Of a stretch of DNA of 64,000 nucleotides, positions 1 through 18,814 are shown one piece after another. The notes beneath the pieces are model-generated. The model had not been told where the DNA came from. It did not search any database and was given only the letters and a program-made list of their open reading frames with translations. Each line of letters opens with the position of its first letter. Position 1 is the stretch's first letter. The stretch comes from Gallionellaceae bacterium. GTDB taxonomy: Bacteria; Pseudomonadota; Gammaproteobacteria; Burkholderiales; Gallionellaceae. The position numbers and the translations under genes were made by a program. The DNA lies in assembly GCA_027448945.1 (NCBI GenBank), contig DAIDMQ010000016.1:1-64000 (forward strand), in the 5' to 3' direction.

Positions 1-4
1 TACC

Positions 5-325
5 ATGATCATGTACGCAAAGATTCGGCGGATGTATTTCCGCGACAAGCTCTCCATCAGTGAGATTGCAACAAAGACCAGCCTATCTTGGAACACCGTC
101 AAGAAATGGATAGGCACGGTACAAAGCTCAGACGTTAAATATCGCAGGAAGCCAGCCGACACACTCTTAAAGCCATTCGAGGATGGATTACTGCTAGCCC
201 TCAAAGCGGACTCGCATCGCCCCAAGCGGGATCGGCGCACCGCGCTGATATTGTTCAAAGACATTCAGAAACAAGGCTTCACGGGTCACTACTGCCGCGT
301 CACCGAATTCGTTCGCAACACATAG
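5..325 (+). pseudogene. IS21-family transposase (IstA-like) N-terminal fragment
   Basis: 106 aa ORF with an HTH (MYFRDKLSISEIATKTSLSWNTVKKWI) typical of IstA N-termini; far too short for a full transposase. Confidence 0.65.
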
Positions 326-694
326 GGTAAATCTGCAAGTGGGACGAACTGTATTTGAGTGAGGTTGTACGTGTCAATGCTATTAGCGGAAATGTCGCTT
401 ATTCTAAATCTGAGGGGGGCGACTTTGAAGCTATTGCATTCAATTTTACGGATGCGATGCCGACCCGAAAATTTGCATTTCAAACACCTCATTGTTGGCG
501 TTATTTACCCAAGTTAATCCCAAAAACAGCCCTCAAAATTACGCACTTCACCCAATATATATCGAGCTAAAACCCATTATTTATATGGCAAATTCACAGT
601 GTATTCCCATCGATTTCACAAAATTACTCCATGAAAAATCAATCAATCTCACCTTTTTAATCGCGATTTATTACCCACTTTTATCTCACTGAAT

Positions 695-738
695 ATACCG
701 CAAACATACCCCAAATATCCCGCAAATATACCCCATCA
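695..738. repeat. Four in-phase 11-bp tandem repeats (ATACCGCAAAC/ATACCCCAAAT/ATCCCGCAAAT/ATACCCCATCA)
   Basis: Read directly: units at 695-705, 706-716, 717-727, 728-738. Confidence 0.8.
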
Positions 739-757
739 CCGCAATAAATTCTCTGGG

Positions 758-838
758 CAGGATGCCAGTTGTCCGACATCGCTTACGCTTTTGTCGGACA
801 ACTGGGAGTTTCGCTCGCTAAGTCTGCTCCGCATCCTG
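758..838. repeat. Nested inverted repeats: inner 14-bp perfect IR (765-778/792-805), outer 8-bp IR CAGGATGC/GCATCCTG (758-765/831-838); possible oriT-like site
   Basis: CCAGTTGTCCGACA...TGTCGGACAACTGG; ATCCTG hexamer on both strands resembling the YATCCTG nick core of RP4-like MOB_P oriTs. Confidence 0.5.
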
Positions 839-1000
839 TCGCAATCGACTCAGGGCTACGCCCCGAGACCCCAACTTCAACGCGTCCTAATGTCGGCGCA
901 GCCTCTCTCGACTTATATTTTTATTTACGGCAGGAATAAACGTGTTTTGCAAGAACACGGGGGCATTAGGAGCAACCAATGCAAGGCCATGCTCGACTAC

Positions 1001-4000
1001 TCATCGCCCCAAAGACTGTTGTCGTAATGACTCATAAAGCTGCGCTGGGCCGAGCAGAATGTCTTTCAGTCCGCCGCGCACTCGTTCCGAATCGAGTGCC
1101 TGCTTGCTCATCGTGCCATGCGCAGACAGCGCATCCATAATCGCGTTCATCAGCTCATTCGCCAGATCAGGCGAGTTCGCAAACTGCTCTTTGGTGTTGC
1201 TGTTAGCCTGCTGCACCAAAATGCTCGACTCCAGTAGCTTGCCTTTGAGGACGTGGTTCACGTAAATCAGTTTGTCATCGTCGCTCAGTTCACCGTTGAA
1301 CAAATCGTTCACCTTCGCGATGATTTCAGCGAGGTAAATCTTTTCCTTTTCTCTCACCTCGCCGCTGCCTGTTGCGGTTATGGGCTCTAACTTGGGATAT
1401 TCGCCATTCACAAGCGGCAATGCTCGTTTGCCCTGATCTTTCAGCTTGTGGTGTGTCATCACGACCTTGGATAAATCGACACCCTCACGCTCGCGCCCGA
1501 ACTCCAGCAACGGCAGCAGCCGCTTGAAGAAAGTTGCACGCTTCTCGATGGCGGTATTGCCGTAATCAAAAATTTGCGACAGGAAGGCATATAAACGCTG
1601 GAACGCGCCCAGATTACTTTTGAACAGCAGCAGTCCCTTAATCTCGTCCAGCGCAACTTGTTCGGCGTTGGCATCTTTGATTGCGGCGGCGGCTTTTGCA
1701 GCTTCCATCGCCGCCTTGTATCGCTTGAGTAGTCGATCGGCGACGGGTTCAATCGCGGCAGAAAGCTCGGCTTGGCTCGCCTTGGCATTCATCTCCACCA
1801 TCACCACGCGCTCTACTTCGTTATCGTCGTAATGCCCCTCGGCATCGAGCTTGGCGCGCAGGTCATACACCAGATGCGGATCGGTCACGTCCTCCAGTTC
1901 CGCTGTCTCGAAATACGTCTTGAATGCAGCCAATACCTCATCAGGATCGTTCACGAAGTCCAGCACATAAGTCGTATCTTTGCCGGGATGCGCGCGGTTC
2001 AGGCGCGACAAGGTTTGCACCGCCTGTATGCCCGCCAGCCGTTTGTCTACGTACATGCCGCACAGCAAAGGCTGGTCGAAGCCCGTCTGGAATTTATTCG
2101 CTACCAACAAGATTTGATATTCGTCCGTCACAAATGCTTCGCGCATATCGCGCCCGCGCAAATTCGGGTTGAGCATCTTGCTGACTTCGGTGTAGGGAGC
2201 GATGCCAGACTCTTGATCGTTCACTTCGCCTGAGAACGCGACCAGCGTGCCGATTTTGTAGTCCTGAGATTTGATGTATTTCTCTATCGCCAGTTGCCAG
2301 CGCACCGCCTCAATGCGGCTGCCAACCACCACCATCGCTTTGGCTTTGCCATTCAGCAACGGCTGCACGTTCTCGCGGAAATGCTCTACCACCACTTGCA
2401 CCTTCTGGCTGATGTTGTAGGGATGCAAACGCACCCAGCGCATGATGCCTTTAAGTGCCTCGCTGCGCTCCACTTCTTTCTCGTCCCACTCGCGTCCCTC
2501 GTTGGCGAGCTTGAACGCCAGCTTGTAGGGCGTGTAGTTCTTCAGCACATCGAGGATGAAGCCCTCTTCGATAGCTTGGCGCATCGAATACACATGGAAC
2601 GGTGCGGGCAGATTGTCCGCGCTGGCAGGAAGATCCGGATTTGGACGGCGACCAAACAACTCCAGCGTCTTGGCTTTAGGCGTGGCGGTGAAGGCGACAT
2701 AGGTGATGCCCGCGATATTGGCGCGCGCTTCCATCTGTGCGGCCAGCAAATCTTCCGTGCTCACCTCGCCGCCATCTTGCAACGCCTGCATTTCCTCGGC
2801 GGACAACACCGACTTCAACTTGGCTGCTGCCGAGCCCGTCTGCGACGAATGTGCTTCATCGGCGATTACCGCGAAGCGTTTGCCCTCTGTCGCCGCCAGC
2901 TCCTGCACCGCCTTTAGCGCGAAGGGGAAAGTCTGGATGGTGCACACCACGATTTTCTTGCCGCCGGACAAGGCTTGCGCCAGCTCGCCGCTCTTGCTTT
3001 GGCTCTCACCCTTGATGCTCGCGACCACACCCGCCGTGCGCTCGAAATCAAAAATTGCTTCCTGCAACTGCGCATCCAGCACATTGCGATCTGACACCAC
3101 CAGCACCGAATCAAACAGCTTCTGGTGCTGCGCATCGTGCAAGTCGGCGAGGAAGTGCGCCGTCCACGCGATGGAATTAGTCTTGCCCGAACCAGCCGAA
3201 TGCTGAATCAAATACTTGCCGCCTGCACCTTCTGTCAGCACGGTCGCCAGCAGTTGGCGCGTCGCATCCAGTTGGTGATAGCGCGGAAAAATTACCGAGG
3301 TGATTTGCTTTTTGCTGTCGCGCTTGGTCACCAGATAACGCCCGATAATTTCCAACCAACTTTCACGCGCCCAAACATGTTCCCACAAATAAGCCGTGCG
3401 ATGTCCATTCGCATTCACCGGGTTACCCGCCGCGCCGTGGTCGCCTTGGTTGAACGGCAAGAACGTGGTCGCTGCACCCAGCAAGCGCGTCGCCATCATC
3501 ACCGCACTATTGCTCACCGCGAAATGTACCAATGCCCCGCGCGGAAAATCCAGCAACGGTTCGGCGGCATTCTGTCCTTTAGGTTTAGGGTTGCGGTCGA
3601 AACGATATTGATCCACCGCGTCTTCTACTGATTGTGTGAAGTTGGATTTCAGTTCCACCGTCGCCACAGGAATGCCATTGAGAAACAGCACTAGATCAAT
3701 CGCGTTTTCGTTGTGCAACGAGTAGCGCACCTGCCGCACCACACGCAGACGATTCGCCGCGTACTTCGTTTGTAATTCAGGGTTCATCGCCAGCGCGGGC
3801 TTGAATTGCGCAAGCTGCAAAGGCTGACGCAAGCCCAACATTTCCACCCCATGCCGCAACACATCCAATGTGCCTCTATCGTCCAACGATTTACGCAAAC
3901 GATCCTGCAACACCGCTTCCGCCGCCGCGCCGTGGCTCTTGCTCAACGCCTCCCATGCCTTGGGCTGTGTGGCTTGCACCCACGCGATGACATCAGCAGT

Positions 4001-4120
4001 AAACAAAGCGCGAGCGCGGTCATAGTTGGCGTAATCGCCTTCGGCATATAACCAACCCTGCGCCGCAAGATGCGCGTAAATGTCGTTTTCGAATTCGATT
4101 TCTCGATGCAGATTACTCAT
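1001..4120 (-). CDS. hsdR: Type I restriction enzyme R subunit (HsdR)
   Basis: 1039 aa; N-terminal nuclease (VATVELKSN), helicase Walker A HSAGSGKTNS, DEAH motif VIADEAHSSQ; next to hsdS/hsdM. Confidence 0.95.
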   Translation of the reverse strand: MSNLHREIEFENDIYAHLAAQGWLYAEGDYANYDRARALFTADVIAWVQATQPKAWEALSKSHGAAAEAVLQDRLRKSLDDRGTLDVLRHGVEMLGLRQPLQLAQFKPALAMNPELQTKYAANRLRVVRQVRYSLHNENAIDLVLFLNGIPVATVELKSNFTQSVEDAVDQYRFDRNPKPKGQNAAEPLLDFPRGALVHFAVSNSAVMMATRLLGAATTFLPFNQGDHGAAGNPVNANGHRTAYLWEHVWARESWLEIIGRYLVTKRDSKKQITSVIFPRYHQLDATRQLLATVLTEGAGGKYLIQHSAGSGKTNSIAWTAHFLADLHDAQHQKLFDSVLVVSDRNVLDAQLQEAIFDFERTAGVVASIKGESQSKSGELAQALSGGKKIVVCTIQTFPFALKAVQELAATEGKRFAVIADEAHSSQTGSAAAKLKSVLSAEEMQALQDGGEVSTEDLLAAQMEARANIAGITYVAFTATPKAKTLELFGRRPNPDLPASADNLPAPFHVYSMRQAIEEGFILDVLKNYTPYKLAFKLANEGREWDEKEVERSEALKGIMRWVRLHPYNISQKVQVVVEHFRENVQPLLNGKAKAMVVVGSRIEAVRWQLAIEKYIKSQDYKIGTLVAFSGEVNDQESGIAPYTEVSKMLNPNLRGRDMREAFVTDEYQILLVANKFQTGFDQPLLCGMYVDKRLAGIQAVQTLSRLNRAHPGKDTTYVLDFVNDPDEVLAAFKTYFETAELEDVTDPHLVYDLRAKLDAEGHYDDNEVERVVMVEMNAKASQAELSAAIEPVADRLLKRYKAAMEAAKAAAAIKDANAEQVALDEIKGLLLFKSNLGAFQRLYAFLSQIFDYGNTAIEKRATFFKRLLPLLEFGREREGVDLSKVVMTHHKLKDQGKRALPLVNGEYPKLEPITATGSGEVREKEKIYLAEIIAKVNDLFNGELSDDDKLIYVNHVLKGKLLESSILVQQANSNTKEQFANSPDLANELMNAIMDALSAHGTMSKQALDSERVRGGLKDILLGPAQLYESLRQQSLGR

Positions 4121-4701
4121 TATGGAACCCTCTCACGCCAAACCAGATCATGGGCATCACACTCAAGTTGCTTTGCCAGCTCAATTAGGCCGAACACCTC
4201 AACATCATCTATCTCAAGCGTAGTCATGATTTCAGCAAAGGTTCGGTCATCCGCATTCTCAAAATGCCTCACAAGATATGCCTCCACCCCTTCAGTTTTC
4301 GTATGCTGGTAAAAGGTGCCTAGTGCCGGATACCTAGCACCATTATTTGTTAGCGTTACCCACGCCTGTTTCTTATTTTTACCTTCAAAAAGATTTTTCC
4401 ACTTTGAGAGATAACGATTAGATTTTATTTCTTTGGCTTTCTGACGGGAGGTCTTAGCCTCATTTAACAGGCGAACATATTCAGCTTGGGTTCGTTCGCT
4501 AATCCAAAATTGCACGATGCTTGGCAAACTAGAGCGGTAGGAATTTTCACTGAAAATAACATAGTTAGAACGGCAAGCCTCGCAGTCCATGTGCATTGAG
4601 GAATCGGTTCTATTCCAGTCATCCATTCGATCAGTAATTGTGTAGGTACTCTTGCCGCAAGGGCAGGGATGCTTGGCTGTGGACATTTCTTCCCAACTCA
4701 T
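4120..4701 (-). CDS. Cys-rich (zinc-ribbon-like) protein of unknown function inside the type I RM operon
   Basis: 193 aa; CPCGKS...DCEACRSNY cysteine pairs; 4-nt overlap with hsdS, 1-nt overlap with hsdR. Confidence 0.7.
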   Translation of the reverse strand: MSWEEMSTAKHPCPCGKSTYTITDRMDDWNRTDSSMHMDCEACRSNYVIFSENSYRSSLPSIVQFWISERTQAEYVRLLNEAKTSRQKAKEIKSNRYLSKWKNLFEGKNKKQAWVTLTNNGARYPALGTFYQHTKTEGVEAYLVRHFENADDRTFAEIMTTLEIDDVEVFGLIELAKQLECDAHDLVWRERVP

Positions 4702-6074
4702 GCAGCCTCCATTTCGGGTGCGCTGTGGCGCACATCAATCTTACCCGACACCGCTGCCGAGATCAGCGCGCTGCGGCGCTCTTTCAACAACGCTATGCCG
4801 CGCTGCGCTTCGGCGGTGAGGGCGTCAAGTTTGGTGGTTTCGATATTGAGGAAGGTGGCGATAGCGGTCTGCTCTTCGATTGGAGGAACAGTCACTGAAA
4901 GATTTTCAATAACACCCATGCCTATGTTTTGCTGCGTTCCAAAACTCCAATTCAAGGTAACCGCTTCTTGAAAGTTTTTTGAGCGCATAAAGTTCAGAAC
5001 AAAATACGGCAACGATTCCTGTCTGCACCGAATTACTGCAAGGGGTGACCAGATATTGAAGTCAATATCCGTTTCCACAATAGCCGTCACACCAGTCGTT
5101 GCACCTGATTTGACCATGTAAATATCGCCGACTTGTGGCCGATACTTCTCCGAGTATCGCAAGTGATCTTCTTCAGAAATGTACCCACGTATCTTTTCAA
5201 AATTGATCTTGCCAGAAGATACAGCTTCAGCCGATACAAACGGAACTCCTTCATCAGGAAAGTTTGGTGTCTCGTGCGGACCATCCGTAATCGGAGTGGA
5301 GACAATGTGTTTTATGGCACAAACTTTCCAATGCTCGGGCACATCGCCCAGCCATTCGATGCCGGAGTCCTTGAGCTTCGCGTTGGGGTTGAGACCCTTG
5401 GTGACAGCGTGGGAGATGTCGGCCTGTCGCTTTTCACGGAGGAGCTGAATCAGCTTCTCCTGCTCCGTCACCAGCGCGTCAATCTTCCCCGTCTCGCGGT
5501 CTAGGAAGGAAGCGATAGAGGATTGTTCTACTAGACTTGGCAGCGGTATTCCCAAATTTTCTATGGAATATTTTCCGAGCGCATAGCGAGTCATTCCAGT
5601 TGCTTCTATTTCAAAAGCAACCTCTACATAGCGCGATTTGAAAAGATGGTAAAGATAGCCGCCATTGATTCCTGCGCGTGGTCGCAACAATGCGAGGTGA
5701 TAGCCACAAACCAAATTTGGCAGAACTTCTGCTACATGTGCTGGAATCCCGATGTCCCTTGGGTCTTCTGAATCCTTGGTGATGATGACATCATCAACCT
5801 CAAGACTGAGGCGGCGAATTTGCTCGGGGCTGGCAGTCGCTGCCATGAATTCGATGCTCGAATCTATATGTTCGTTTTTATATACGTCGGTGTAGTTGCA
5901 CAGCAGTACAGATGGTTCATCTTCAACTGTGTGCTTGTCTATATTGCTCAGGCGAACATCAACGGCGTATTTGAGTGGACTTATTTCCCAATGCCCCGGC
6001 ACTTCGCCCAGCCACGCCACGCCGCTGTCTTTGTATTCGGGATAACGCGGGAGACTCATAACGCCTCCTCCCAA
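4698..6074 (-). CDS. hsdS: Type I restriction enzyme specificity subunit (HsdS)
   Basis: Two TRD repeats with KDSGVAWLGEVPGHWE / KDSGIEWLGDVPEHWK signatures. Confidence 0.95.
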   Translation of the reverse strand: MGGGVMSLPRYPEYKDSGVAWLGEVPGHWEISPLKYAVDVRLSNIDKHTVEDEPSVLLCNYTDVYKNEHIDSSIEFMAATASPEQIRRLSLEVDDVIITKDSEDPRDIGIPAHVAEVLPNLVCGYHLALLRPRAGINGGYLYHLFKSRYVEVAFEIEATGMTRYALGKYSIENLGIPLPSLVEQSSIASFLDRETGKIDALVTEQEKLIQLLREKRQADISHAVTKGLNPNAKLKDSGIEWLGDVPEHWKVCAIKHIVSTPITDGPHETPNFPDEGVPFVSAEAVSSGKINFEKIRGYISEEDHLRYSEKYRPQVGDIYMVKSGATTGVTAIVETDIDFNIWSPLAVIRCRQESLPYFVLNFMRSKNFQEAVTLNWSFGTQQNIGMGVIENLSVTVPPIEEQTAIATFLNIETTKLDALTAEAQRGIALLKERRSALISAAVSGKIDVRHSAPEMEAA

Positions 6075-6970
6075 AGAGGCAGGTTTTTCCAGTTTTTAGG
6101 AAATCCCATTACGTTTACGGATGCCTGCGGACATGTGTCAAGCAGCGTTATCAACTTGTTGCGCCAATTTGATTCTGGGTTAATGACACGCAGCATATAA
6201 GCCAACATAGCAAGGCTGTTATACAGCCGTCCGTGTGCATCATCATCTCGATTAAACACGCTAGCCAGTTCCGCAGGTTTTTTGCTTGGCAGTCGCATTT
6301 TTACAGTAAGGCGACGATTCCAGATGCGCCCATGATGTGCGCAGTGATTGCGCACAATGGTTAAGTGATGCAGGAAGGAGACCAACACCAATTCATCTAA
6401 CACGTAAGTATCAGCAATTGCCTGGCGATCATGTGGTTTACGCAAGTTTTGTATCCACCGCGACAAATGCCCGATAGACATCAGTTCACACGATACCCAA
6501 ATTGGCGGTGTCGCCAAGTGGTTGTAGTTTTCCTGATAATGTTTGGCAAAAGTTTCATGGCTGCGTTGGAACTCCTTGTCCAACTCATCGCAGCAACGCT
6601 TCCATGTGTCCTGCCGATTAAACAGCGAGCCATCGTGGTGTGCAAAAACGCCGTAATTTAATGAAAGATAATTTGCCCAGCGGCAACGCAAGGAAATTTC
6701 AATATGTTCGATCGCGTCAAGTAAAAGCAAACGTAGTGCGCGGTCAAACTGATAGGTAGCAATGACATCAGAAAACTGAGTATCTGCGCGGAATTTATGC
6801 TCACCACTTGAGCTGGTTAACTCATAAGGTAACCAATAGGCACGAAGCCGATAGTAGTTTATGTGCGTTAGATAATGAGTGGCCAGATCACGATCTGGGA
6901 TCACCATGCCGCGCTTAGTAAGGAGCTTGATCTGATCGGCTACAGAGAGGGGTGGTTTGTGGAAAGTCAT
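6056..6970 (-). CDS. Abi family protein (Abi_2; AbiD/AbiF-like)
   Basis: KPPLSVADQIKLLTKRGMVIPDRDLATHYLTHINYYRLRAYWLPYE and RNHCAHHGRIWNR motifs; start taken at internal Met (MTFHKPP). Confidence 0.88.
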   Translation of the reverse strand: MTFHKPPLSVADQIKLLTKRGMVIPDRDLATHYLTHINYYRLRAYWLPYELTSSSGEHKFRADTQFSDVIATYQFDRALRLLLLDAIEHIEISLRCRWANYLSLNYGVFAHHDGSLFNRQDTWKRCCDELDKEFQRSHETFAKHYQENYNHLATPPIWVSCELMSIGHLSRWIQNLRKPHDRQAIADTYVLDELVLVSFLHHLTIVRNHCAHHGRIWNRRLTVKMRLPSKKPAELASVFNRDDDAHGRLYNSLAMLAYMLRVINPESNWRNKLITLLDTCPQASVNVMGFPKNWKNLPLWEEAL

Positions 6971-7154
6971 ACTTTTTCGACCCCACAAAAAAGTAACCCG
7001 CCTGGTGCGCATCGTTGAGAGGCGTGGCGGGTGTTGTTGGCGCGGATTATACATAGCAAGGAAAAATATGCAAATTTCCTTAGCATATTTTGCGCTGCAT
7101 TTTGTGATGGAAAATTCATCGTAGTTTTTACCACACGTTTTTTATACGAAAAAA

Positions 7155-8906
7155 TCATGCCGAAAGCCCCGCTATCATTTCTTTAATTCTATCGGTGGTG
7201 AGCTTGAGTTCCGCATCAATCTCCGCCAATTCGCGCGGCGGCTGAAAGACGTAGAAATGGCGATTAAATGGAATCTCGTAACCGACTTTGGTTTTGTCGT
7301 GGTCTATCCACGCGTCAGGTGCATGAGGCAGCACTTCGCGCTTGAAGTAAGTTTCGACTTCTTCAGAGAGCGGCACACTTTCGGTATCGCGCAATGACGA
7401 ATCAGACTGTGGCTTACCCTTAGATTTTCCCTTCTCACCCACAACAGCTTTGCCTTGCGCATCTTTAAGCGGACGTTCGACGGTGATAGTGCGATAGCCA
7501 AAGTCGCTGTTATTGAAAATGCGGCTGATAGGTTTGCCGTCCTTTTCTGCTTCGAGAAAATCGCCAAACAAGCGCGTGATCTCGGCGATATGTTCGTCAC
7601 TCATTTGCTTGCGTTTGCTGCCCAAACTCTTGCGCATCTTTTGCCAGAAATCACTGGAGTCAATGAGTTGGATTTTGCCTTTACGCTGTGTTGGCTTGCG
7701 GTTGGAGAGTATCCAGACGTAGGTGCTGATGCCCGTGTTGTAAAACATGTCGGTGGGCAGACCGATGATGGCTTCGACCAAATCATTTTCTAGTACATAG
7801 CGGCGGATTTCAGATTCACCTGAACCCGCACCGCCCGTGAATAAGGGCGAACCGTTAAGCACAATACCGAAGCGGCTGCCGCCATCCTTGGCGGGGCGCA
7901 TCTTGCTGACCAGATGCAGCAAGAACAGCAGCGAACCATCCGACACACGCGGCAAGCCGGGGCCGAAGCGTCCATTAAAACCTTGGCTTTCGTGCTCTTT
8001 GCGAATTTCTTTTTCGACCTTTTTCCACTCCACGCCAAACGGCGGATTGGACAGCATGTAGTCGAATTTCTTGTGCAGGTGTCCGTCGTCGGACAGCGTG
8101 TTGCCCGGTGTGATGTTGCCTACGTCCTGCCCTTTGATAAGCATGTCGGCCTTGCAAATTGCATAAGACTCGTCGTTGAGTTCTTGCCCGAACATGGTGA
8201 GCCGCGCTTGCGGGTTGTGTTCTTCCAGATACTCGCCCGCGATGGACAACATGCCACCCGTACCTGCCGTCGGATCATAGATGGTGCGCACCACGCCAGG
8301 CTTGGACAACATCTCGTCGTCTTCAATGAATAGCAGATTGACCATCAGGCGGATGACTTCGCGCGGAGTGAAATGCTCACCGGCAGTCTCGTTGGAAATT
8401 TCGGCAAACTTGCGGATTAGCTCTTCAAACACCAAACCCATCTGGCTATTGCTGACGGTATTCGGATGCAATTCAATCTGTGAGAATTTTTCGCAAACTT
8501 GATAGAGCAAGCCCGCTTTGGCCAGGCGCTCGACTTGAGTGTGAAAATCAAATCGTTCGAAGATGTCGCGCACGGCAGGTGAGAAAGATTGGATGTAGCT
8601 GAACAGGTTTTCGCGGATGTGATCCTGATCGCCCATCAGCTTTTTCATATCCAAAGCCGAAGTGTTGTAAAAACTCTGTCCTGCTTTGCGCAACAAGAAA
8701 GGCTCAGGATTCAGCCCAGCTTTTTGTTGCTTATCGAATTCGGCAAGCACAGCGGGCTTGGTGGTTTCGAGAACACAGTCGAGACGGCGCAACACAGTGA
8801 ACGGCAAAATAACTTTGCCGTACTCGGACTGTTTGTAATCACCACGGAGAAGGTCGGCGACCGACCAAATGAAGGACGAAAGTGCTTGGTGATTCATATG
8901 CCTCAA
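7155..8906 (-). CDS. hsdM: Type I restriction-modification N6-adenine methyltransferase (HsdM)
   Basis: [10 protein letters not shown] and SNPPFG motifs; HsdM N-terminal domain. Confidence 0.96.
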
Positions 8907-8986
8907 TCAAATTTCTTAACCGCCGCATTCTGAGGGCTACAGCACTTCGACGCAACAAGCGAAGCACACAAGAAATACCACAACAC

Positions 8987-9155
8987 TCAATGCAGAACCC
9001 GCCCCACCTCGGCATGACCTATCGCACCCTCCCGATTGCCTCTCTTCGGTATCCACAGGCAAGCCACTGCATCACCAGACTGTATGCGCTTGGCAAAAGC
9101 ATCCTCAACCAAAAACGTGACCCGTCTAAAATAAATATCCACACAGGTCTCGCTC
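8987..9155 (-). pseudogene. Truncated duplicate of the C-terminus of the AAA ATPase gene at 11214-12656
   Basis: Reads VDIYFRRVTFLVEDAFAKRIQSGDAVACLWIPKRGNREGAIGHAEVGRVLH*, matching VDIDLRRVTFLVEDAFAKAIQSGDAVACVLIPKRGNREGAMGKFEVGRVLH* of the intact gene. Confidence 0.9.
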
Positions 9156-9156
9156 A

Positions 9157-9185
9157 GTGTTCCCTGCCTGCGCGGGGATGAATCG
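9157..9185 (+). repeat. Solitary 29-nt type I-E CRISPR-repeat-like sequence
   Basis: GTGTTCCCTGCCTGCGCGGGGATGAATCG; same 6-bp stem/4-nt loop register as E. coli I-E repeat GAGTTCCCCGCGCCAGCGGGGATAAACCG. Confidence 0.5.
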
Positions 9186-9202
9186 CCCTAATCCGATTCC
9201 AC

Positions 9203-9601
9203 CTACTTCGTTTTTTTCTCTATCTTGCGACGACTGCGAACTAGCTTGGCAAAGTCACCGACCATCCCCACAACAAAAGCGCGCTCGGCTTCATCAAGTT
9301 CGCCCAGCAATTTTTCCAGCAGCAGCGACTGATCTGGCTTGCGTCGGGAAGCGGGACTCAACAACGATTCAACCGTGCAGTCCAGCGCGTCCGCCAATGA
9401 AAAGAGGCGACTCAATGATGGCGTGATACTGCCAGTTTCGATTCTGGACATACTCTCTTGCTCGATGCCCACTCGTTCTGCCAACTCCCCCTGCGTTAAT
9501 CCCAGCGACTTGCGACGTGCAGCAATCAACACACCCACTGATTTTGCGAGGTTCTGGTGCTTGATATTCGGCTGACTTTTCACCTTGCGACTCCACATCA
9601 T
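9203..9601 (-). CDS. XRE-family HTH transcriptional regulator
   Basis: HTH_3: LIAARRKSLGLTQGELAERVGIEQESMSRIETGSITPSLSRLFSLADAL. Confidence 0.92.
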   Translation of the reverse strand: MMWSRKVKSQPNIKHQNLAKSVGVLIAARRKSLGLTQGELAERVGIEQESMSRIETGSITPSLSRLFSLADALDCTVESLLSPASRRKPDQSLLLEKLLGELDEAERAFVVGMVGDFAKLVRSRRKIEKKTK

Positions 9602-9651
9602 TTGATGACGTAAAGTGTCGTTTCATTAGTCGCTTGCAAGAATGATTCATA

Positions 9652-9678
9652 ATGCCATAAAATGATGTGTTATGTCAT
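9652..9678. promoter_or_regulatory. Candidate operator: imperfect inverted repeat ATGCCATAA-N9-TTATGTCAT
   Basis: Lies in the divergent gap between the XRE gene and the lipoprotein gene; 8/9 arm identity. Confidence 0.35.
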
Positions 9679-9704
9679 ATTCGTGGCATTCTTTTGGAGA
9701 ATTT

Positions 9705-10328
9705 ATGAACTCGCATTCTGCTGCTCTCATTTCCGTCACCGCCAAACAATCCATGTTGAAATTTTCTAAGCGCGCAATCGGGTTAGCGTTTGTGATTAGC
9801 CTTGCAGCTTGCTCTACCGAGCAGTTGCATAAATTCAATCAAGACCTTGCTGCACTGAATGGAGGATTGGCAGACAACAGCAGTCCAACAGCGAAGCCAG
9901 GAACGATGGCAGTCAACGCCCCCAGCACCGATAAAACCGCACCCACTAAATTGATAGTGCCAAACGATACGCGCACCAAAGCCGCAATGGATGCCGCACT
10001 ACCTAACGTCAAAAAAATATTGGCGATACACCAGTGCGTTAAGGTGGATGAGGGAATGTTGCAACTGAATTACTACACAGTTTCTGGTGTGAGCATCAGG
10101 GCTTACGGGAACTACCCAGACCACCAGTGGTTTATGAAATATCACGACAAAAACAAATGTGTGGGTGTACAGGCAATTGATAGCTGGACGATGCCCGCGA
10201 TGAATGCCTTGCAATTCCGTGCTGTTTATTTTGCGGAAGACAGCGGCGAGACGGTGAATTTTGGCTATCTGATGAAAAAAACCGAAGACGGTTCGTGGAA
10301 GCTTGAATCTCTTGAGAAGACTAGCTAA
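9705..10328 (+). CDS. Putative lipoprotein of unknown function
   Basis: Signal peptide with lipobox LAAC; start chosen at internal ATG 9705. Confidence 0.6.
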   Translation: MNSHSAALISVTAKQSMLKFSKRAIGLAFVISLAACSTEQLHKFNQDLAALNGGLADNSSPTAKPGTMAVNAPSTDKTAPTKLIVPNDTRTKAAMDAALPNVKKILAIHQCVKVDEGMLQLNYYTVSGVSIRAYGNYPDHQWFMKYHDKNKCVGVQAIDSWTMPAMNALQFRAVYFAEDSGETVNFGYLMKKTEDGSWKLESLEKTS

Positions 10329-10355
10329 TTATCAAAATCAGGTAAACCACACATC

Positions 10356-11084
10356 ATGTTTCTAGCCCGCAATACGCCCGCCTTCGTCATCAGCTATTTG
10401 GTGCTGATGATACCGACCTACATCCTGCCTTACTTCGGCTCTAACTCCTCGCTGGTCAATGCCCTCAGTGTGTCGCAGGGCATGGGCATGTTGCCGCAAT
10501 GGTGGATGCACATTTGGTTCTTGGTCATGTTGACCCTGCTAGTCTGGTTGCGCGGCAGCGTTATCGACAAGGCTTATCTGCCCGTATTTCCGGTGATCGC
10601 AGCGATTTTCGACATGACACCGGGGCTAAGCATGATCCCGATGATTCCGACGGTGATGCATCTGGTCGGCATCATTTTGGGGGCGATGGGCGTGGTCGTT
10701 TTGGCAACGGAAGAAGCGGCAGTCAACAGAGAACTGTTGCTGGGACGCAAAGCAAAAATCGTGGCGGGAATTGCCACTTTGCTTGCTATTGGTGGCAGCA
10801 CTTTGTTTGTCACTACCCTAACATCGGGGCATCACAAACCGTCCGCAACGGTGGCAGAGAAATTGGTGAAGCCCGCGATTGCGCAAGCTCCGGTAAAGGT
10901 CGAGGAAGTTAAACCGCAAGCCACACCGGAAGAACTCGCGGCTGAAACACCTGCCGCCGCGCCCGCAATGCCCGCGACACCAAGCCACAAGCATCACAAC
11001 GTTGCACATGATTCCGTATCAACTACGACAAGGTCGGCTAAATCCGAAAAACAGTCTGTCCGATATTTAAATTTGAATGACTGA
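10356..11084 (+). CDS. Putative inner-membrane protein of unknown function
   Basis: Multiple hydrophobic helices then an Ala/Pro-rich tail; 242 aa. Confidence 0.6.
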   Translation: MFLARNTPAFVISYLVLMIPTYILPYFGSNSSLVNALSVSQGMGMLPQWWMHIWFLVMLTLLVWLRGSVIDKAYLPVFPVIAAIFDMTPGLSMIPMIPTVMHLVGIILGAMGVVVLATEEAAVNRELLLGRKAKIVAGIATLLAIGGSTLFVTTLTSGHHKPSATVAEKLVKPAIAQAPVKVEEVKPQATPEELAAETPAAAPAMPATPSHKHHNVAHDSVSTTTRSAKSEKQSVRYLNLND

Positions 11085-11213
11085 GTATTTTCAATAGCGC
11101 AATTCAAATAAGACAAAGGCAATGAGCGTATACAAAAATACCTTGTAACTCCTGCGCTCAAAGGGCTGCAAGGCTTTAATGCAACAAGCGCAACGCAACA
11201 AGAACCACAACAC

Positions 11214-12656
11214 TCAATGCAGAACCCGCCCTACCTCAAACTTCCCCATCGCACCCTCCCGATTGCCACGCTTAGGTATCAACACACACGCCACCGCATC
11301 ACCTGACTGTATCGCCTTAGCAAACGCATCCTCAACCAAAAACGTAACCCGTCTAAGATCAATATCCACTCGCTCCGCAAGCAACTCACTGCTGCCCTTA
11401 TCTAGAGCAATCTGTTTACCTGTTTTCATACGCAATTTTTCTGCGACGCTTTTGATGATGCGCAGACGTTGCTTAGCATCAGGAAGTGGCACGTTAAATA
11501 TCTCGCAACGCGACAACAATGACGCAGGCACACCAGCAAGGCTATTGGCCGTCAGCACAAATATCACTTTGCTGGCATCAAACTGCATTTCAAAGAATTC
11601 GTCCTTAAAGTTGCGACCCGTTCCAGGTTCAAGCAAATCCAACAACACCGGCAAAACAGGACAATTTGAATCACGGATCTTATCGACCTCATCAATCACT
11701 ACAACAGGTGATGCAGACTTTCCTGTTGCTAGTAAGGCAATCAATGCACCTGGCCGAGCTGCTGTCCAGGTTGAGTGTGAGCCAGTCAGTTGAAAGCCAC
11801 CCTGTGCGCCACCCGCACTGATTTTTTCCATAGGCACGCCCAAGGACTCTGCAAGCTGTGTCGCCAAGTACGTTTTGCCAATCCCCGGTTCACCCAGCAA
11901 CAAAATGGGCGTAAGGTGGAAATCTTGCGGCTTCATACAGCTAGCCAACACCAGTCCTGTTTCTAAACGGTTTATAGGTTCAACCAGATTTTCAAAGTTG
12001 TGTTTTGCTTCGCCTAATTTCACTACACCTTTTTTTGCATTGGGTATCGCACGATAGCCGTCGTTTATCTGTGCAGCCTCAAGAATCGAATCACAACCCG
12101 TTTTTTTCTCCTGCTTGATTGAGTTCAATAGGGTCATGGCATTTTCCAATGATTCAGGATTGAACACTTGTACGCTGTCACGCGGTTTCTGTTTTTTTCT
12201 TCTAGGAATGTTTTTTGGCGCATCAAGGACCGCCTTCCAATGAATGTATGACCGCTTAACCAGCATGTCTGCTCTGCCACTTTCCAGACGCTCGAACTTC
12301 TTCTCGAAACGATCCAGCCAATCTTCTGCAACGTGTCCTGTAAAGATAGGGCGATTGTTTGGGAAAGATTGAAGTATCTGCATTGCCGAATCCCATCTAG
12401 GGTCAACAATAAGCTCCAACATATCTTTGAACATGCCGCTTTCCTTATCAACAGACACTTGCATCGCAACGGCGATGAATAGGTTTGTTGAAAACTCTCG
12501 TGTTGCTTCATCCATGAGGATGCGCGCTTTCCCTAGTGTCCTCGATGCCAACGCAACAGCATCGTCAAAGGCGTAAGACGTTCCAATGCGTATGCAGGCA
12601 AGGTCAAAATTATCTTCCATGTTCTTCTCCAAATATTCCATCAGGGGTGGCATCAA
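11214..12656 (-). CDS. AAA+ ATPase with Lon-like ATPase module, no protease domain
   Basis: Walker A LGEPGIGKT, Walker B VVVIDEVDKI, sensor region VLTANSLAGVPASLLSRCEI; ends without a Lon protease domain. Confidence 0.85.
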   Translation of the reverse strand: MMPPLMEYLEKNMEDNFDLACIRIGTSYAFDDAVALASRTLGKARILMDEATREFSTNLFIAVAMQVSVDKESGMFKDMLELIVDPRWDSAMQILQSFPNNRPIFTGHVAEDWLDRFEKKFERLESGRADMLVKRSYIHWKAVLDAPKNIPRRKKQKPRDSVQVFNPESLENAMTLLNSIKQEKKTGCDSILEAAQINDGYRAIPNAKKGVVKLGEAKHNFENLVEPINRLETGLVLASCMKPQDFHLTPILLLGEPGIGKTYLATQLAESLGVPMEKISAGGAQGGFQLTGSHSTWTAARPGALIALLATGKSASPVVVIDEVDKIRDSNCPVLPVLLDLLEPGTGRNFKDEFFEMQFDASKVIFVLTANSLAGVPASLLSRCEIFNVPLPDAKQRLRIIKSVAEKLRMKTGKQIALDKGSSELLAERVDIDLRRVTFLVEDAFAKAIQSGDAVACVLIPKRGNREGAMGKFEVGRVLH

Positions 12657-12829
12657 GAAAATCGCGGTGATGTGAAACGGCGCATTAATAGTTTCTTGAA
12701 GTGCGCATATTGAGTCACGTCCTCACGCATTATGCAAGCAGTTTCGGAAATAAAGTGAATTTTGCATAGCGGTCAAATTCTCAGAATGTTATTGTGAGGG
12801 CGTGATGAAATAGTTTTAAGGATTGCGAA

Positions 12830-13087
12830 GTGACTGAAGAAGCTACAGAAGAAAAGAAGAAACGTGGGAGGCCAGCAAACCCCAAAGGGGCGATTTCGGC
12901 TGTTGAGCGTCAGGCGACCTATCGTAAGAACAAACTGAAAGAGGGAATTGAGCTCAGCATATTTTTAACGCATAAGCAGGCGGCCATTTTGCGCGCGGTA
13001 TCGAAGAGGGCAGGGAAAACTCAATCGGAGACGGTTGGGGAGTTGCTTGAGAATTCTACCCAGATCAGTCCCAACACAACAATTTGA
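12830..13087 (+). CDS. Small basic protein, possible DNA-binding (AT-hook-like KKRGRPANPKG)
   Basis: 85 aa ORF; 3' end overlaps the relaxase gene in antisense. Confidence 0.5.
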   Translation: MTEEATEEKKKRGRPANPKGAISAVERQATYRKNKLKEGIELSIFLTHKQAAILRAVSKRAGKTQSETVGELLENSTQISPNTTI

Positions 13088-15693
13088 TTGAGTTTTCCTG
13101 TGTGTTTAACGACCGTCCTTTTTTTATCGGGCGTTTGCGAAAGCTGAATGCTGGAAACGCCATCTTTGTATTTCACTGTGATTGATTGTGTAGCATCACC
13201 AATTGGCGGCGGAATAAAGTGCAAGGCGTATCTGCCGCGACCAAGGTGTTGAGCAAATCCAAAGTCGCTCTGGTCACTAACATCAGACGCAGCGATAACT
13301 TTACCCTCATAGCTCGTGTTGCTATCTGCACTGGGAATAACAAATTCAGCTTGCGGATCGAGGGATAAAATCTTTTTTCGTAAAATCTCTTCTATAGGCG
13401 TGGCGACCGTGGTCGGCGGCTCTTCAATAATGATGGGTTCTGACTTGGGTACGACAGGTATCACATCGAGTACAGTTTCAATCTTATTCAATGCACTGTT
13501 TCGTGCTACGCGGTGATTCGCAATCTCAACTTGCAACTCAGGGTTGAGGATAATCAGCCCCAATTCATCAGCAAGACGCGCCATCCTCGCTGTGAATAGA
13601 GGGTCATTACCAGTCAGCGTTAGTCCTTTGCCGAATTTCTGTTCGGCGTGCATCAGTGCTAAGCAAATCTCTTCGTCGGTAACCAGCACCTTGTCAAAGG
13701 TAATGCGATTGCCGCGATCCGTAAAAATGTGCTCACCATACATATCAAGATAATTGACATTGCCGTTACCAGTGACGCGCCATTTGATTCCTGCGTATTG
13801 GGCTAACAACGCATCAACTTCGAAGGGACGCATATCATGGATGTGCGAGGAACGAATTGCATTTTCATGGCGCTCATTATTTAAAAGCCGGCTCATCAGC
13901 TTCGCGAAATGTTGCTCATCAGATTTGAGTCGAACACCTGCTTCGACGAATTCAGACGAATCAATTTCTATCGTATGAGTTTCATTGAGAGTTGCTTCAT
14001 ACGATTTTGCATCACGCTGCGCCTGATACACGATGCCGCGTAAGGCTGACAATGCGGCCTGGTCACCCAGCTTGGCCTGTTCGTGCAACCATACACGCCA
14101 GCCAAGTGGCATGACGCGCGAAAAAGATAGTTCCCGCATGTGCGCTTGAAAAATACTCTCAACCTTAAGTTTTTGCTTAATGGCTCGACTGTGAATAGCT
14201 TCCAATGGAAATATGCGAGATTTTATGTCGTGCAAAAAATCACGTTTCAATGATTGGCGCTGCTGCTTGGATTCAACACGAATCGTCGCCAACAATGCAC
14301 TACGCTTAGCTCTAATGGCTTTAACCTGTTTAAGATATTCAATATCGCCTTCGGCAACCATATCCTGGTACCGATTGAAACGACTCCGCAAATCTGCACG
14401 CGCAATGGCTCGCGCTGCTTTACGCTCCTCGCGTTTCAAGTTGTCTCGCGCATAACGATTTTTAGAGGTGGAGTTTGACTCGACAATAGCGTCAGAATAG
14501 TCTGTGCCAACATCCGAATTATTGTGTCCAGCGAATGCCAGATTACGTTTTGATTGATTCTCTGGGTTTAATTCTCGCATCTCATCAGCATCAACCATGT
14601 TCAATTGTTGGTTGCGCGCCCAAGGTGGAACGCCTTGATCAAAGCTACTCTTGAGAAATGTATTAACCTTCTGGTGGATTTGTAAAGGATTAAACACGGT
14701 CATATTTGGGACGACACAATTCATGACTAGATCCGTGTCATCATCGTCTGTAGACGGAAAAGAAGTAATATCTTGAAGCAACTCGGTTTCATTAGTCGTG
14801 AATGCACCCCAACGCGCTTCTAGCTCATATCGCTTTAGAAGGCGCAGTCCTCTGCTGGCAGGAAAATATAAAACCTCGCCTGAATCAGCAGATGTGATTT
14901 CTAATCGTAAGCCGCCGCCCGTATCGAGTAGGCCAATTGAATAATTTTCTAACCAACGGTGCAAATCATGCCAATTCTGTAATGTTGGTAGTGCTCGCTT
15001 TAATGCTTTTGATACGTCTGATTTAAGCCAAGCCATGAGGCTGTCTGGGTCGTGCCATGCAGGCAATACTGAAGGCGATTTATGTAGTACATTTTTAATG
15101 ATGGATTTATTGCCGAGCTCATCCGATTGCACGATAAAAATACCATTATCGTTTGACCACCCGTGCTTGATTTCACTTTCGCGTGCCGCTCGGTGCAAAG
15201 TTTTAATTGACCATTCCAAATGTTGCGAACGAAACGTTATAGGGTGAATGCGATTGACTGCGACATGACAATGTATGTTGTCTGTATTTGAATGTATAGC
15301 AACCACGGATTGATGCTCACCAAGTCCTAGAGACTGGAGAGCATGATTTGCCGCATCAAAAATAACGTCGTGATGCGGACTTTCGTGCTCCGGCCAACTG
15401 AGAATGAATGTAAAAACGGGATCCTTGCATCGTAAATTTCGTGAAGCGACTGCGTTCATTTCTGTTGCGGCGAATTCAAGTGCGCAGATTTTGTTGGTTC
15501 GAATGGCAACGCATTTTTCTTCAGCGGTGAGCACATCTTTTGTGGCTGTTGCGTAATTCAGAATGTCACTGAATAAAGAGTTAGCAAGCTGATACTCCTT
15601 AGACTTATTCTCTAGAACATAGGCGACCAAATCACTAAACGGTTTAGCGTGATTTGATCGATGTCGGCGTTGGGGTGGAATGTGGGGAATCAT
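13021..15693 (-). CDS. MOB_P-type (TraI/MobA) relaxase with long C-terminal region
   Basis: Motif I KPFSDLVAYVLEN (catalytic Tyr) and motif III AIHSNTDNIHCHVAVNRIHP, comparable to RP4 TraI SDFAELVKYITD / HHDTDNLHIHIAINKIHP. Confidence 0.9.
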   Translation of the reverse strand: MIPHIPPQRRHRSNHAKPFSDLVAYVLENKSKEYQLANSLFSDILNYATATKDVLTAEEKCVAIRTNKICALEFAATEMNAVASRNLRCKDPVFTFILSWPEHESPHHDVIFDAANHALQSLGLGEHQSVVAIHSNTDNIHCHVAVNRIHPITFRSQHLEWSIKTLHRAARESEIKHGWSNDNGIFIVQSDELGNKSIIKNVLHKSPSVLPAWHDPDSLMAWLKSDVSKALKRALPTLQNWHDLHRWLENYSIGLLDTGGGLRLEITSADSGEVLYFPASRGLRLLKRYELEARWGAFTTNETELLQDITSFPSTDDDDTDLVMNCVVPNMTVFNPLQIHQKVNTFLKSSFDQGVPPWARNQQLNMVDADEMRELNPENQSKRNLAFAGHNNSDVGTDYSDAIVESNSTSKNRYARDNLKREERKAARAIARADLRSRFNRYQDMVAEGDIEYLKQVKAIRAKRSALLATIRVESKQQRQSLKRDFLHDIKSRIFPLEAIHSRAIKQKLKVESIFQAHMRELSFSRVMPLGWRVWLHEQAKLGDQAALSALRGIVYQAQRDAKSYEATLNETHTIEIDSSEFVEAGVRLKSDEQHFAKLMSRLLNNERHENAIRSSHIHDMRPFEVDALLAQYAGIKWRVTGNGNVNYLDMYGEHIFTDRGNRITFDKVLVTDEEICLALMHAEQKFGKGLTLTGNDPLFTARMARLADELGLIILNPELQVEIANHRVARNSALNKIETVLDVIPVVPKSEPIIIEEPPTTVATPIEEILRKKILSLDPQAEFVIPSADSNTSYEGKVIAASDVSDQSDFGFAQHLGRGRYALHFIPPPIGDATQSITVKYKDGVSSIQLSQTPDKKRTVVKHTGKLNQIVVLGLIWVEFSSNSPTVSD

Positions 15694-15751
15694 AATGGTG
15701 CAATCTCACACAGACAATATGTATCTGATAAAAAATCCAGGTGAGAAATAG

Positions 15752-16084
15752 TCATTTATCTATTCTCATCATTGCATCGAGCGCGCTTTGGATTATGGGT
15801 TGCCACAACGCTTCAGGCGGAGGGTGTCCATTTTCTAAAAAACTAGCGTGAATCGAGCGTATTGCTGCGACACATTCGATCAGCGCCACAATTATAAAAG
15901 CGTCAATCTTAATTTCCGTTTTTTGGTTGAGAGTGGCTCGGCGAATGAATTCGCTGGGCGTAAGGTTGCGGGCTGCTGCGGAGACGCGAATGGTCATAGC
16001 TTCTTCTCTATCAAAACGGACAGAAATTTTTTCTGATTTTCGATCCTTCGTTGTGCATGCCGTGAAAGCTTTATTGATTTTCAT
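15752..16084 (-). CDS. MobC/TraJ-like mobilization accessory protein (RHH)
   Basis: SEKISVRFDREEAMTIRVSAAARNLTPSEFIRRATL; directly upstream of relaxase gene. Confidence 0.75.
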   Translation of the reverse strand: MKINKAFTACTTKDRKSEKISVRFDREEAMTIRVSAAARNLTPSEFIRRATLNQKTEIKIDAFIIVALIECVAAIRSIHASFLENGHPPPEALWQPIIQSALDAMMRIDK

Positions 16085-16616
16085 TGGACCAGACAAATTC
16101 AACTCCAAACTTGCGAGAGGCGCGAAGTTGATTTTTAGTTAGGTTAGATAATTTAATTGAGTGGTAAGTCCGAGGGTTAATGCGATTTGCAATTACATGG
16201 CAGTGAGTGACTGTCGATTGAGTATGTATCGCGACAACAGCCTGATGATCTTCAAAGCCGAGATAATTGAGTACAGATTCAGCGACATCGAATATATTCT
16301 CAGTTAGTAGAGTTTCAGAGTCTGGCCAAGTGAAAGAAAAGGCGAAAGCGGGATTGGGACAGCGCCTATTTTTGCTTGCCACCGCATTCATTACGACAGC
16401 AGATGATTTGGGCGAAAAATAAGTGTACGTTCTAACTGAAATGCAACGCCCTGCATTATTAACAGCATCGATAGCCCTTGTTGATTGGTAGTTAAGAACC
16501 TCAGCGAACGGGGATCCTATTAACACGAATGTGTCATCAAGCAAGATTTGACTGATGAGGCTTGTAAATGGCTTTTCTAAAAGTTCTTCGGCACTAGAGG
16601 GAATCTTGGCAGTCAT
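16071..16616 (-). CDS. Stand-alone relaxase-like domain paralog, probably catalytically inactive
   Basis: Aligns with N-terminus of the 13021-15693 relaxase (MNAVASKNRRCPNPAFAFSFTWPDSE; HQAVVAIHTQSTVTHCHVIANRINP; WSNENQ) but Tyr is Gln and the acidic motif is lost. Confidence 0.85.
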   Translation of the reverse strand: MTAKIPSSAEELLEKPFTSLISQILLDDTFVLIGSPFAEVLNYQSTRAIDAVNNAGRCISVRTYTYFSPKSSAVVMNAVASKNRRCPNPAFAFSFTWPDSETLLTENIFDVAESVLNYLGFEDHQAVVAIHTQSTVTHCHVIANRINPRTYHSIKLSNLTKNQLRASRKFGVEFVWSNENQ

Positions 16617-16618
16617 AT

Positions 16619-16879
16619 TTATGCTCCTTTGGTGTTTTGGTTAATAAATTTTCGATTCGAATTCAATGTCAAAACAAGTTCTCTTATTTCTGCATCCGAA
16701 TGGCCTGCTATTCGATATGCATTGAGGTTAGCGACCTCGTTCTCCGGCCATCCAACAGCCCGCTGGCCAATTCGGACCGGAGCGGTGAATAATCCTTGCT
16801 GTATATCCGCGTAATGTGAACTACGTGATCGCCCTCGAATGCGGAGTACTTCAGGAAGTCGTAAAATTTTTTGTGACAT
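16619..16879 (-). CDS. AlpA-family regulator
   Basis: ILRLPEVLRIRGRSRSSHYADIQQGLFTAPVRIGQRAVGWPENEVANLNAYRIAG. Confidence 0.9.
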   Translation of the reverse strand: MSQKILRLPEVLRIRGRSRSSHYADIQQGLFTAPVRIGQRAVGWPENEVANLNAYRIAGHSDAEIRELVLTLNSNRKFINQNTKGA

Positions 16880-16983
16880 GTTAAATTTCCCAAGCGTTAT
16901 CTTCTGGTTATTGCTGTCGACACTTTAAGTTTCTAAAACTTGGCAAGTTCAGCTGTATTTGGAGTTGGAGGAAGCACAATTTC

Positions 16984-17208
16984 CTAGCTCCAATTGATTC
17001 GCTGAGTCGTGGATTTAACTCGCCATATCAAAACGCAAGGCCACTCTGCGAACGATTTTTTTGCACGTCGGATTAGAATTTCGGTCAATTCACTGGCTTG
17101 ACGTAAAGCTAGGCTAAAGCCATCAGCAAATCGATCCGGTAAAGCTGTCAACTGCGCTAGCAAAGAAGGTAGACCCCATTTTTGCGACAGGAATTCTTCA
17201 GTTTTCAT
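16984..17208 (-). CDS. Hypothetical small protein
   Basis: 74 aa ORF; no recognised family. Confidence 0.35.
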   Translation of the reverse strand: MKTEEFLSQKWGLPSLLAQLTALPDRFADGFSLALRQASELTEILIRRAKKSFAEWPCVLIWRVKSTTQRINWS

Positions 17209-17329
17209 TTTGTTACCTAACGTGTAATTATTGTGTGTGCATTAAACTACACCACCAATAATATGTAGACTACCTAGTGTAAATTTAGTAGCCTTCGCTA
17301 TTGGTATACATGTTTGCGTTGTAAAAACT

Positions 17330-18334
17330 ATGGGAAAGCAATCACCTAAGCTGGCAGAAAATAATGAGAGCGTTATTTCTCTTCTGAAATACATACAAAA
17401 ACAATCTAACAAAACTCAAATTGAAATTGAGAAGCAATTTGTCGATAAATTAGGTGCCCCAGGAAAGCAATGGTCTAGATGGGTCAATGGACATAGACTG
17501 CCAAGATTAGAGGTTGTTAAAAAGATGTTTTCTTTTGCGGTAGATAAACTGATTTCTGGGGCATGGACTGAAAATGGTGAGGAGGTTAATTGGTCTAATT
17601 TGTATCAAATTACCGTCATTGAACCTAAGGTGTTATTTTTGTTAAATCACAGAGTGGGGTTAGCTATTGCGTACCGTTCTTTAAATGCCCCCACCATTAT
17701 CACAGACCAAAAAATCCGAGGTATAGAGGCGGGTTACTACATTCCATCATTAGATGAAATTGAAAAGTTATTTTTTACTGATGCAATTAATCACGAAGTC
17801 GCATTGAGTCGCGTTGATAGGCTTGTGACCTGTAAGAACACGGAGGAATTAAGCTCCGTTGGAATGCTACTTAAAGATATAGAGAGTTGTTTTGGTATAA
17901 GCGATCACGACAAAATTGAAAGCTCAAAATTTTTTAGGCGTTGGAATATTGTAGCTGATGAAAGTTATGATTGGGCCGAACAATTACTTCTTAAAATGCA
18001 AGATGATGTGGGTGTACTTGAAAAAATTTCTAAACGTCTTATTTCAGTAGGTGGTGGTCTCTCAGACGATCTATTTTTTGAAGAAGCCAAAATTGGCAAC
18101 ACAATCCTCCAAAGTGCAAATGATCTACAGAAAAGGATAAATCAAATATCGACTATGAGTCCTGCCGAAAGGATTATTTGGAAAAATGAATTGTATTATT
18201 TCAATGTTAAAGCCCAAGGGTTAGACGGATACACAAAATCCAAATATATGTGTGTTTGCGAAACATTGGAAATTGATTATGGCGGCAGGAATGTTCGAGA
18301 GCTTCATCTAAATAAGTTTCTCCCAATTATTTAG
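17330..18334 (+). CDS. Hypothetical protein with possible N-terminal HTH
   Basis: 334 aa; KTQIEIEKQFVDKLGAPGKQWSRWVNGHRLPRLEVVKKM is HTH-like; AT-rich island gene. Confidence 0.55.
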   Translation: MGKQSPKLAENNESVISLLKYIQKQSNKTQIEIEKQFVDKLGAPGKQWSRWVNGHRLPRLEVVKKMFSFAVDKLISGAWTENGEEVNWSNLYQITVIEPKVLFLLNHRVGLAIAYRSLNAPTIITDQKIRGIEAGYYIPSLDEIEKLFFTDAINHEVALSRVDRLVTCKNTEELSSVGMLLKDIESCFGISDHDKIESSKFFRRWNIVADESYDWAEQLLLKMQDDVGVLEKISKRLISVGGGLSDDLFFEEAKIGNTILQSANDLQKRINQISTMSPAERIIWKNELYYFNVKAQGLDGYTKSKYMCVCETLEIDYGGRNVRELHLNKFLPII

Positions 18335-18480
18335 ATTTGAGAGCAGGCTGGTCTAAATCATTAAGCAAATCTTCTTCACGCAGGTTGCGTGTAAACCCTG
18401 AGCATCTGCATGCTCTGGTGCCCAGAAAACAGCCAATACCTTTTAATCGCGCGATATTTATAGCCATAGTTTCTTGCTAT
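18327..18480 (-). pseudogene. Frameshifted C-terminal remnant of a tyrosine recombinase
   Basis: One frame reads WLFSGHQSMQMLRVYT, the adjacent frame continues RNLREEDLLNDLDQPALKSK*; together resembles integrase ends GHK..QMLxRYTHLRAEDL. Confidence 0.5.
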
Positions 18481-18586
18481 CCCATCAGAGCTGAAATTTG
18501 AAGTTAGAGCATTTTAATGATGAAAATTTGGGTCCTAGCAATTTTCTGGTTTACCCCTGAGTTTACCCCCGAGCGAAATTTTGAAA

Positions 18587-18620
18587 TAAAAAAGGAGCTA
18601 GCCGTTAAGCTAACTCCTTG
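18587..18620 (-). terminator. Rho-independent terminator downstream of tRNA-Arg
   Basis: AAGGAGTTAGC-TTAACG-GCTAGCTCCTTTTTT on the minus strand. Confidence 0.7.
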
Positions 18621-18627
18621 TTTATAT

Positions 18628-18704
18628 TGGTGCGCCCGAAGAGATTCGAACTCCTGACCCCTTGGTTCGTAGCCAAGTACTCTATCCAGCTGAGCTACGG
18701 GCGC
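18628..18704 (-). tRNA. tRNA-Arg (anticodon ACG), CCA encoded
   Basis: GCGCCCGTAGCTCAGCTGGATAGAGTACTTGGCTACGAACCAAGGGGTCAGGAGTTCGAATCTCTTCGGGCGCACCA, full cloverleaf. Confidence 0.96.
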
Positions 18705-18720
18705 GTGTAAATTGTTGCCT

Positions 18721-18814
18721 TGGCGGAGAAGGAGGGATTCGAACCCTCGATCCAGGTTTATGCCCGGATGCTCCCTTAGCAGGGGAGTGCCTTCGACCAC
18801 TCGGCCACCTCTCC
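18721..18814 (-). tRNA. tRNA-Ser (anticodon GCT), CCA encoded
   Basis: GGAGAGGTGGCCGAGTGGTCGAAGGCACTCCCCTGCTAAGGGAG...GGTTCGAATCCCTCCTTCTCCGCCA, long variable arm. Confidence 0.96.

Follow-up and report, generated by a model that had tools for sequence, protein, structure and literature searches.

A second, short relaxase-domain gene stands beside a complete MOB_P relaxase gene in the mobilisation operon of a Gallionellaceae contig, of which a stretch of 64,000 nucleotides (the window) was analysed. Its product is a paralog of the nuclease domain of the adjoining relaxase that shows protein-level constraint and has lost the first motif-I tyrosine and the T-D of motif III, and a second, distant instance with the same losses was found in another Burkholderiales family. 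These features are consistent with a relaxase domain that no longer cleaves DNA and may have been kept as a component of the relaxosome.

The short gene and its operon

The short gene (16071..16616, minus strand) has an ATG start, an open frame and a strong preceding ribosome-binding site, AAAGGAGcataaatATG, and encodes 181 residues that comprise the nuclease domain only. PF03432, the MobA/VirD2-like nuclease domain, was recognised in the protein at E=4e-19 (69.6 bits versus a gathering cut-off of 24.6). Its residues 15-180 were aligned with the N-terminal domain of the adjoining 890-aa relaxase at 39% identity (E=2e-37), a similarity which, from this comparison, is far above chance. This nearly end-to-end alignment and the Pfam score bear out the relaxase paralogy proposed in the preliminary description. 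The short protein scored below the equivalog cut-off for TraI/MobA(P) conjugative relaxases (NF041893, 80 versus 250 bits). AlphaFold models of the short protein and of the large N-terminal domain reached pLDDT 76 and 78, and the best PDB match of both was the relaxase MobA of R1162 (2ns6; E=7e-3 and 1.4e-4, respectively), the short model being of moderate confidence and its fold match weak.

The order of genes on the minus strand is alpA, short gene, mobC and large relaxase. An AlpA-like regulator gene (16619..16879, minus strand; PF05930, E=5e-10) would be the first gene of this presumed operon. The mobC gene (15752..16084, minus strand; PF21983, E=6e-10), encoding a NikA-like ribbon-helix-helix accessory protein, starts with the ATG at 16084 and is devoid of an obvious ribosome-binding site of its own; both its 14-nt overlap with the short gene and the open frame of the latter, as previously described, are real. 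The large relaxase (13021..15693, minus strand) combines PF03432 with TraI_middle and LPD7, reaches 267 bits for NF041893 (cut-off 250) and has its active-site residues Y25, Y47, TDN and H134/H141/H143 all intact. The region upstream of alpA (16880..17329), which includes a small ORF at 16984-17208, would hold the promoter or oriT if these are located upstream of the operon; significant structure, an oriT hairpin, a promoter or a consensus site were sought in this region and none stood out.

Active-site residues and the two motif-I tyrosines

Residues were compared over 35 near-invariant columns among 18 large relaxases. Twelve of the 35 were changed in the window short protein and seven in that of the second genome, G226, with Y25, H95, T137, D138 and D182 (replaced by E) lost in both (overlap p=0.033); H95 was already missing in the window's own large relaxase. 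Gln23 of the window short protein takes the position of the first motif-I Tyr (FxxLvxY; Y25 in the large relaxase), and a Gly does so in the short protein of G226. Motif III ahead of HxH, T-D-N in 18/18 large relaxases, reads S-T-V and I-L-N, respectively. The conserved D-N had earlier been reported as VT: the motif is indeed changed, and the exact reading has to be corrected to D replaced by T and N by V. All three metal-binding His are kept in the window short protein (H131, H138 and H140), and both short proteins have retained H134, H141, H143, N147 and R148 (large-relaxase numbering), as well as the second motif-I-like Tyr (Y47 in the large relaxase, Y43 in the window short protein). As its first motif-I Tyr is replaced, and likewise the motif III T-D, the short protein is probably unable to cut DNA, and residual activity is possible since Y43 is retained. 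The basic N-terminal segment QRRHR is also gone from the window copy, whose net charge went from +3 to -1, which argues somewhat against plain or autonomous oriT binding. Given this loss and the very long branch of the protein (3.5 changes per column), its DNA binding may be gone.

The relaxase subfamily concerned displays two FxxLxxY motifs, hence two motif-I-like Tyr, and the assignment of the RP4 Y22 equivalent varied with the method. L-INS-i, G-INS-i and HH-suite aligned Y22 with the second, retained Tyr, E-INS-i with the first, lost one, and the spacing from beta-1 favours the first. In a profile comparison, a weak match to MOBL (structure 9qq7) also brought the first motif opposite the segment around the catalytic Tyr of that family, which is Tyr26 in RelLS20 (PMC5313138). 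In the E. coli plasmids L100 and L109, typed conjugative (23 records at >=95% identity), Phe stands in place of the second Tyr and the first remains, and the first was present in 30/30 double-motif relaxases read. As a conjugative-typed lineage carries Phe at the second position and none of the 30 relaxases has lost the first, the Tyr loss in the short proteins is probably real, and the balance of these hints makes the first motif-I Tyr the likely catalytic residue. Even with a catalytic second Tyr, the T-D of motif III would still be lost in both short proteins. Regarding the preliminary claim of a Gln at the RP4 Tyr22 equivalent, the replacement of the first motif-I Tyr by Gln23 therefore stands, but its equivalence to Y22 is ambiguous between alignments and weaker than was stated. 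Two motif-I Tyr are also found in MOB_F relaxases (TrwC, F TraI), a separate family outside which only one active-site Tyr is recognised (review, PMC12857230). The case also draws attention to a detail of NikB/IncM-type relaxases, namely two motif-I-like Tyr, both nearly always conserved, of which one conjugative-typed plasmid lineage is without the second.

Recurrence, constraint and origin

G226, the one match in 399 genomes of the order, carries, arranged as in the window, a 219-aa short gene (PF03432, 87.8 bits) followed by a NikA-like mobC and a 986-aa relaxase gene. Its short gene and mobC overlap by 17 nt, mobC is preceded by GAGGAG, and the locus also contains a P4-type integrase and a 94-aa AlpA-like gene (AlpA-like by eye, with no Pfam match). 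The overlaps in both genomes suggest an expression coupled with that of MobC. The Tyr loss, which had been singled out as worth following in other short paralogs, was shared by this sole other one found (Tyr to G), as was the loss of the D. No third succession of short gene, mobC and relaxase was found in 1,346 genomes, mostly from Burkholderiales and the wider class. Neither a scan for sequence patterns across 84,980 species, which was strict and misses divergent copies, nor a search of IMG/VR yielded a third short copy, and plasmid searches covered the best place per record only. No short copy was seen beside the relaxase in close relatives, including a Methylotenera MAG, other genomes of the same family, Burkholderia, Cupriavidus, Acidovorax, Rhodoferax and Chromobacterium, among others, an absence that is limited for L035, L039 and L040 by little or limited upstream DNA. 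As the remaining close relatives of this relaxase show no such gene, the short copy appears as a rare addition and not as a family-wide component: the two-relaxase arrangement proposed beforehand recurs in G226 but is not general.

Other short PF03432 frames (L092, L093 and L048) were rejected as unrelated stand-alone, frameshifted or different relaxases, and two places reported in Rhodoferax were explained by sequence repeated within one linear record, with the same large relaxase. In three Methylophilaceae-type relatives, an ORF lies between mobC and the relaxase (7258-7866 in L036; 8056-8709 in L064 and 9675-10301 in L065, both same-family genomes). Directly upstream of the relaxase, a 'phosphohydrolase' gene was found in Cupriavidus and Acidovorax (L031/L032), and a Fic-family gene in Rhodoferax (L066), so that the cargo at this place varies among related elements.

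Both short proteins look constrained. Synonymous divergence was saturated (dN 0.58 for the short-large pair of the window and 0.34 for that of G226), and identity to the own large relaxase was compared between near-invariant columns and the remaining ones: it amounted to 64% versus 31% in the window (p=4e-4) and 77% versus 48% in G226 (p=0.001). When the large domain was left to drift neutrally to the observed divergence in simulations, with indels excluded, only 19/2000 runs were free of stops. The short gene has neither the stops and frameshifts nor the lack of protein-level constraint of a decaying pseudogene, and we retain the earlier view that it is maintained, with the reservation that such tests integrate the entire past of the gene and are compatible with a recent relaxation.

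As to the origin of the short genes, the short/mobC joint of G226, CATGAAAAA, is identical to the codons CAT GAA AAA (H-E-K) of the large relaxase from the same genome, and the joint of the window, in TCC AAT GAA, is near the codons TCA AAC GAT of the large gene. Both joints suggest a tandem duplication of the stretch between the mobC start and a position inside the relaxase gene. The breakpoints differ, at about relaxase residue 178 in the window and 214 in G226, suggesting two independent duplications with convergent loss of the Tyr and T-D. Each short protein was placed nearest to its own large relaxase in trees, without support, and a single origin of the short proteins was not rejected (pAU 0.097); the two may perhaps have arisen independently.

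Possible roles and genomic setting

We tentatively favour, at somewhat less than an even chance, the view that the short protein, a relaxase domain no longer capable of cleavage, has been maintained to modulate the relaxosome. A partial duplicate of the adjoining MOB_P relaxase would have been reduced to its HUH nuclease domain and would probably have lost cutting, the motif III T-D and the first motif-I Tyr being replaced and the three metal-binding His remaining. The non-cleaving protein, made from the shared operon immediately ahead of MobC, may bind oriT, MobC or the relaxase, and compete or pair with the full-length relaxase at oriT or on MobC, whereby nicking would be modulated. The dominant-negative, accessory and heterodimer roles named in the preliminary description are likewise candidates. 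It speaks against this view that there are two instances only and that close relatives otherwise show no short copy, the gene being dispensable for the family. The broader proposal that, on two or more independent occasions, a partial relaxase duplicate of a mobilisable element became a cleavage-dead HUH 'pseudorelaxase' regulating or assisting the relaxosome is rather doubtful.

An unlikely but serious alternative is that the short gene is the remnant of a partial tandem duplication (from the mobC start to relaxase codon ~180-215), its frame remaining open mainly as a translational leader of mobC and its protein doing little. The own leader of mobC would then have been replaced at the duplication junction, leaving its translation coupled to the short gene, a step to which we give similarly limited credence. 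Both short genes end in the region of the mobC start codon in the same frame relation, the H-E-K joint of G226 is as expected from a duplication by microhomology, and in the window the strong ribosome-binding site belongs to the short gene while mobC has no clear one. Active-site losses, the very long branch and rarity would also fit relaxed selection. However, coupling alone would not leave near-invariant positions with twice the conservation of all others, nor readily account for three His, the N and the R being kept while the Tyr and T-D were lost in both genomes, and the mobC of G226 does have its upstream GAGGAG.

It is conceivable, though improbable, that the short protein is a positive subunit of a heteromer with the large relaxase and not its inhibitor, for instance by keeping hold of one end of the DNA or by bringing in the full-length enzyme via MobC. 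MOB_P relaxases are recruited to oriT by NikA/MobC-type accessories (PMC12857230), which would offer a shared docking partner, and transfer is lost upon deletion of nikA or nikB (PMC6112013). A duplicated domain with a preserved metal site, encoded in the same operon next to mobC, would suit such a subunit, but most relatives do without it and the basic N-terminus is gone in the window copy. Still less credible, and in our opinion very improbable, is an active nickase operating through Y43, for instance at a different site. It would be in line with the retention of this Tyr (Y43/Y47) in both short proteins, with the three His and with the three alignments that place RP4 Y22 on the second Tyr; against it, the motif III T-D, which does not vary among the large relaxases compared, is lost in both copies, and the L100/L109 lineage has Phe for the second Tyr whereas the first was never missing among the relaxases read.

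Compared with known systems, the short protein shares PF03432, the HxxxxxxHxH signature and a gene position adjoining a NikA/MobC ribbon-helix-helix accessory with TraI/NikB-type MOB_P relaxases (NF041893; NikB of R64/IncI1 and of pCTX-M3/IncM). It differs from these by the absence of TraI_middle, LPD7, the first motif-I Tyr and the motif III T-D, and by its gene lying ahead of mobC and next to that of a complete relaxase. HEN relaxases (MOB_P5, ColE1 MbeA type) are, as far as known, active and the only relaxase of their element. They resemble the short protein in that motif III deviates naturally within MOB_P (PMC12857230, PMC3394729), but they change the His triad, whereas the short protein keeps the triad and has lost the Tyr and T-D in a second copy. 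By the functional analogy proposed here, it would be, like the NikA/MobC accessories, a non-cleaving relaxosome component of the same operon; their ribbon-helix-helix fold is different, and the window has its own mobC too. Searches of an open-access library revealed no description of an inactive relaxase paralog standing on its own, which is no proof of absence, and the succession of short gene, mobC and relaxase is apparently a rare, undescribed variant. If functional, the short protein would represent a relaxase pseudoenzyme encoded within the very operon for mobilisation. It would give direct access to how the frequency of nicking is limited in integrated elements, and could be studied as a naturally non-cleaving relaxase.

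The island is flanked by a tRNA-Arg(ACG) and tRNA-Ser(GCT) pair (18628..18814, minus strand), of which a second copy of the 3'-end repeat was sought and none found. As the contig starts at window position 1 and no integrase lies between there and the tRNA pair (1-18628), the other end of the island is absent from the assembly; the contig start (1-350) apparently falls inside a transposase fragment, as judged by eye. A type I restriction-modification system (hsdR, hsdS and hsdM; 1001-8906, minus strand) was also present, in which hsdS and hsdM are separated by an Abi_2 gene (6056-7054). Downstream of the relaxase, an AAA-family ATPase gene (Lon-like by NCBIfam in the window) was found both in the window (11214-12656, minus strand) and in the Rhodoferax plasmid L066 (10258-11691), and may be a shared cargo.
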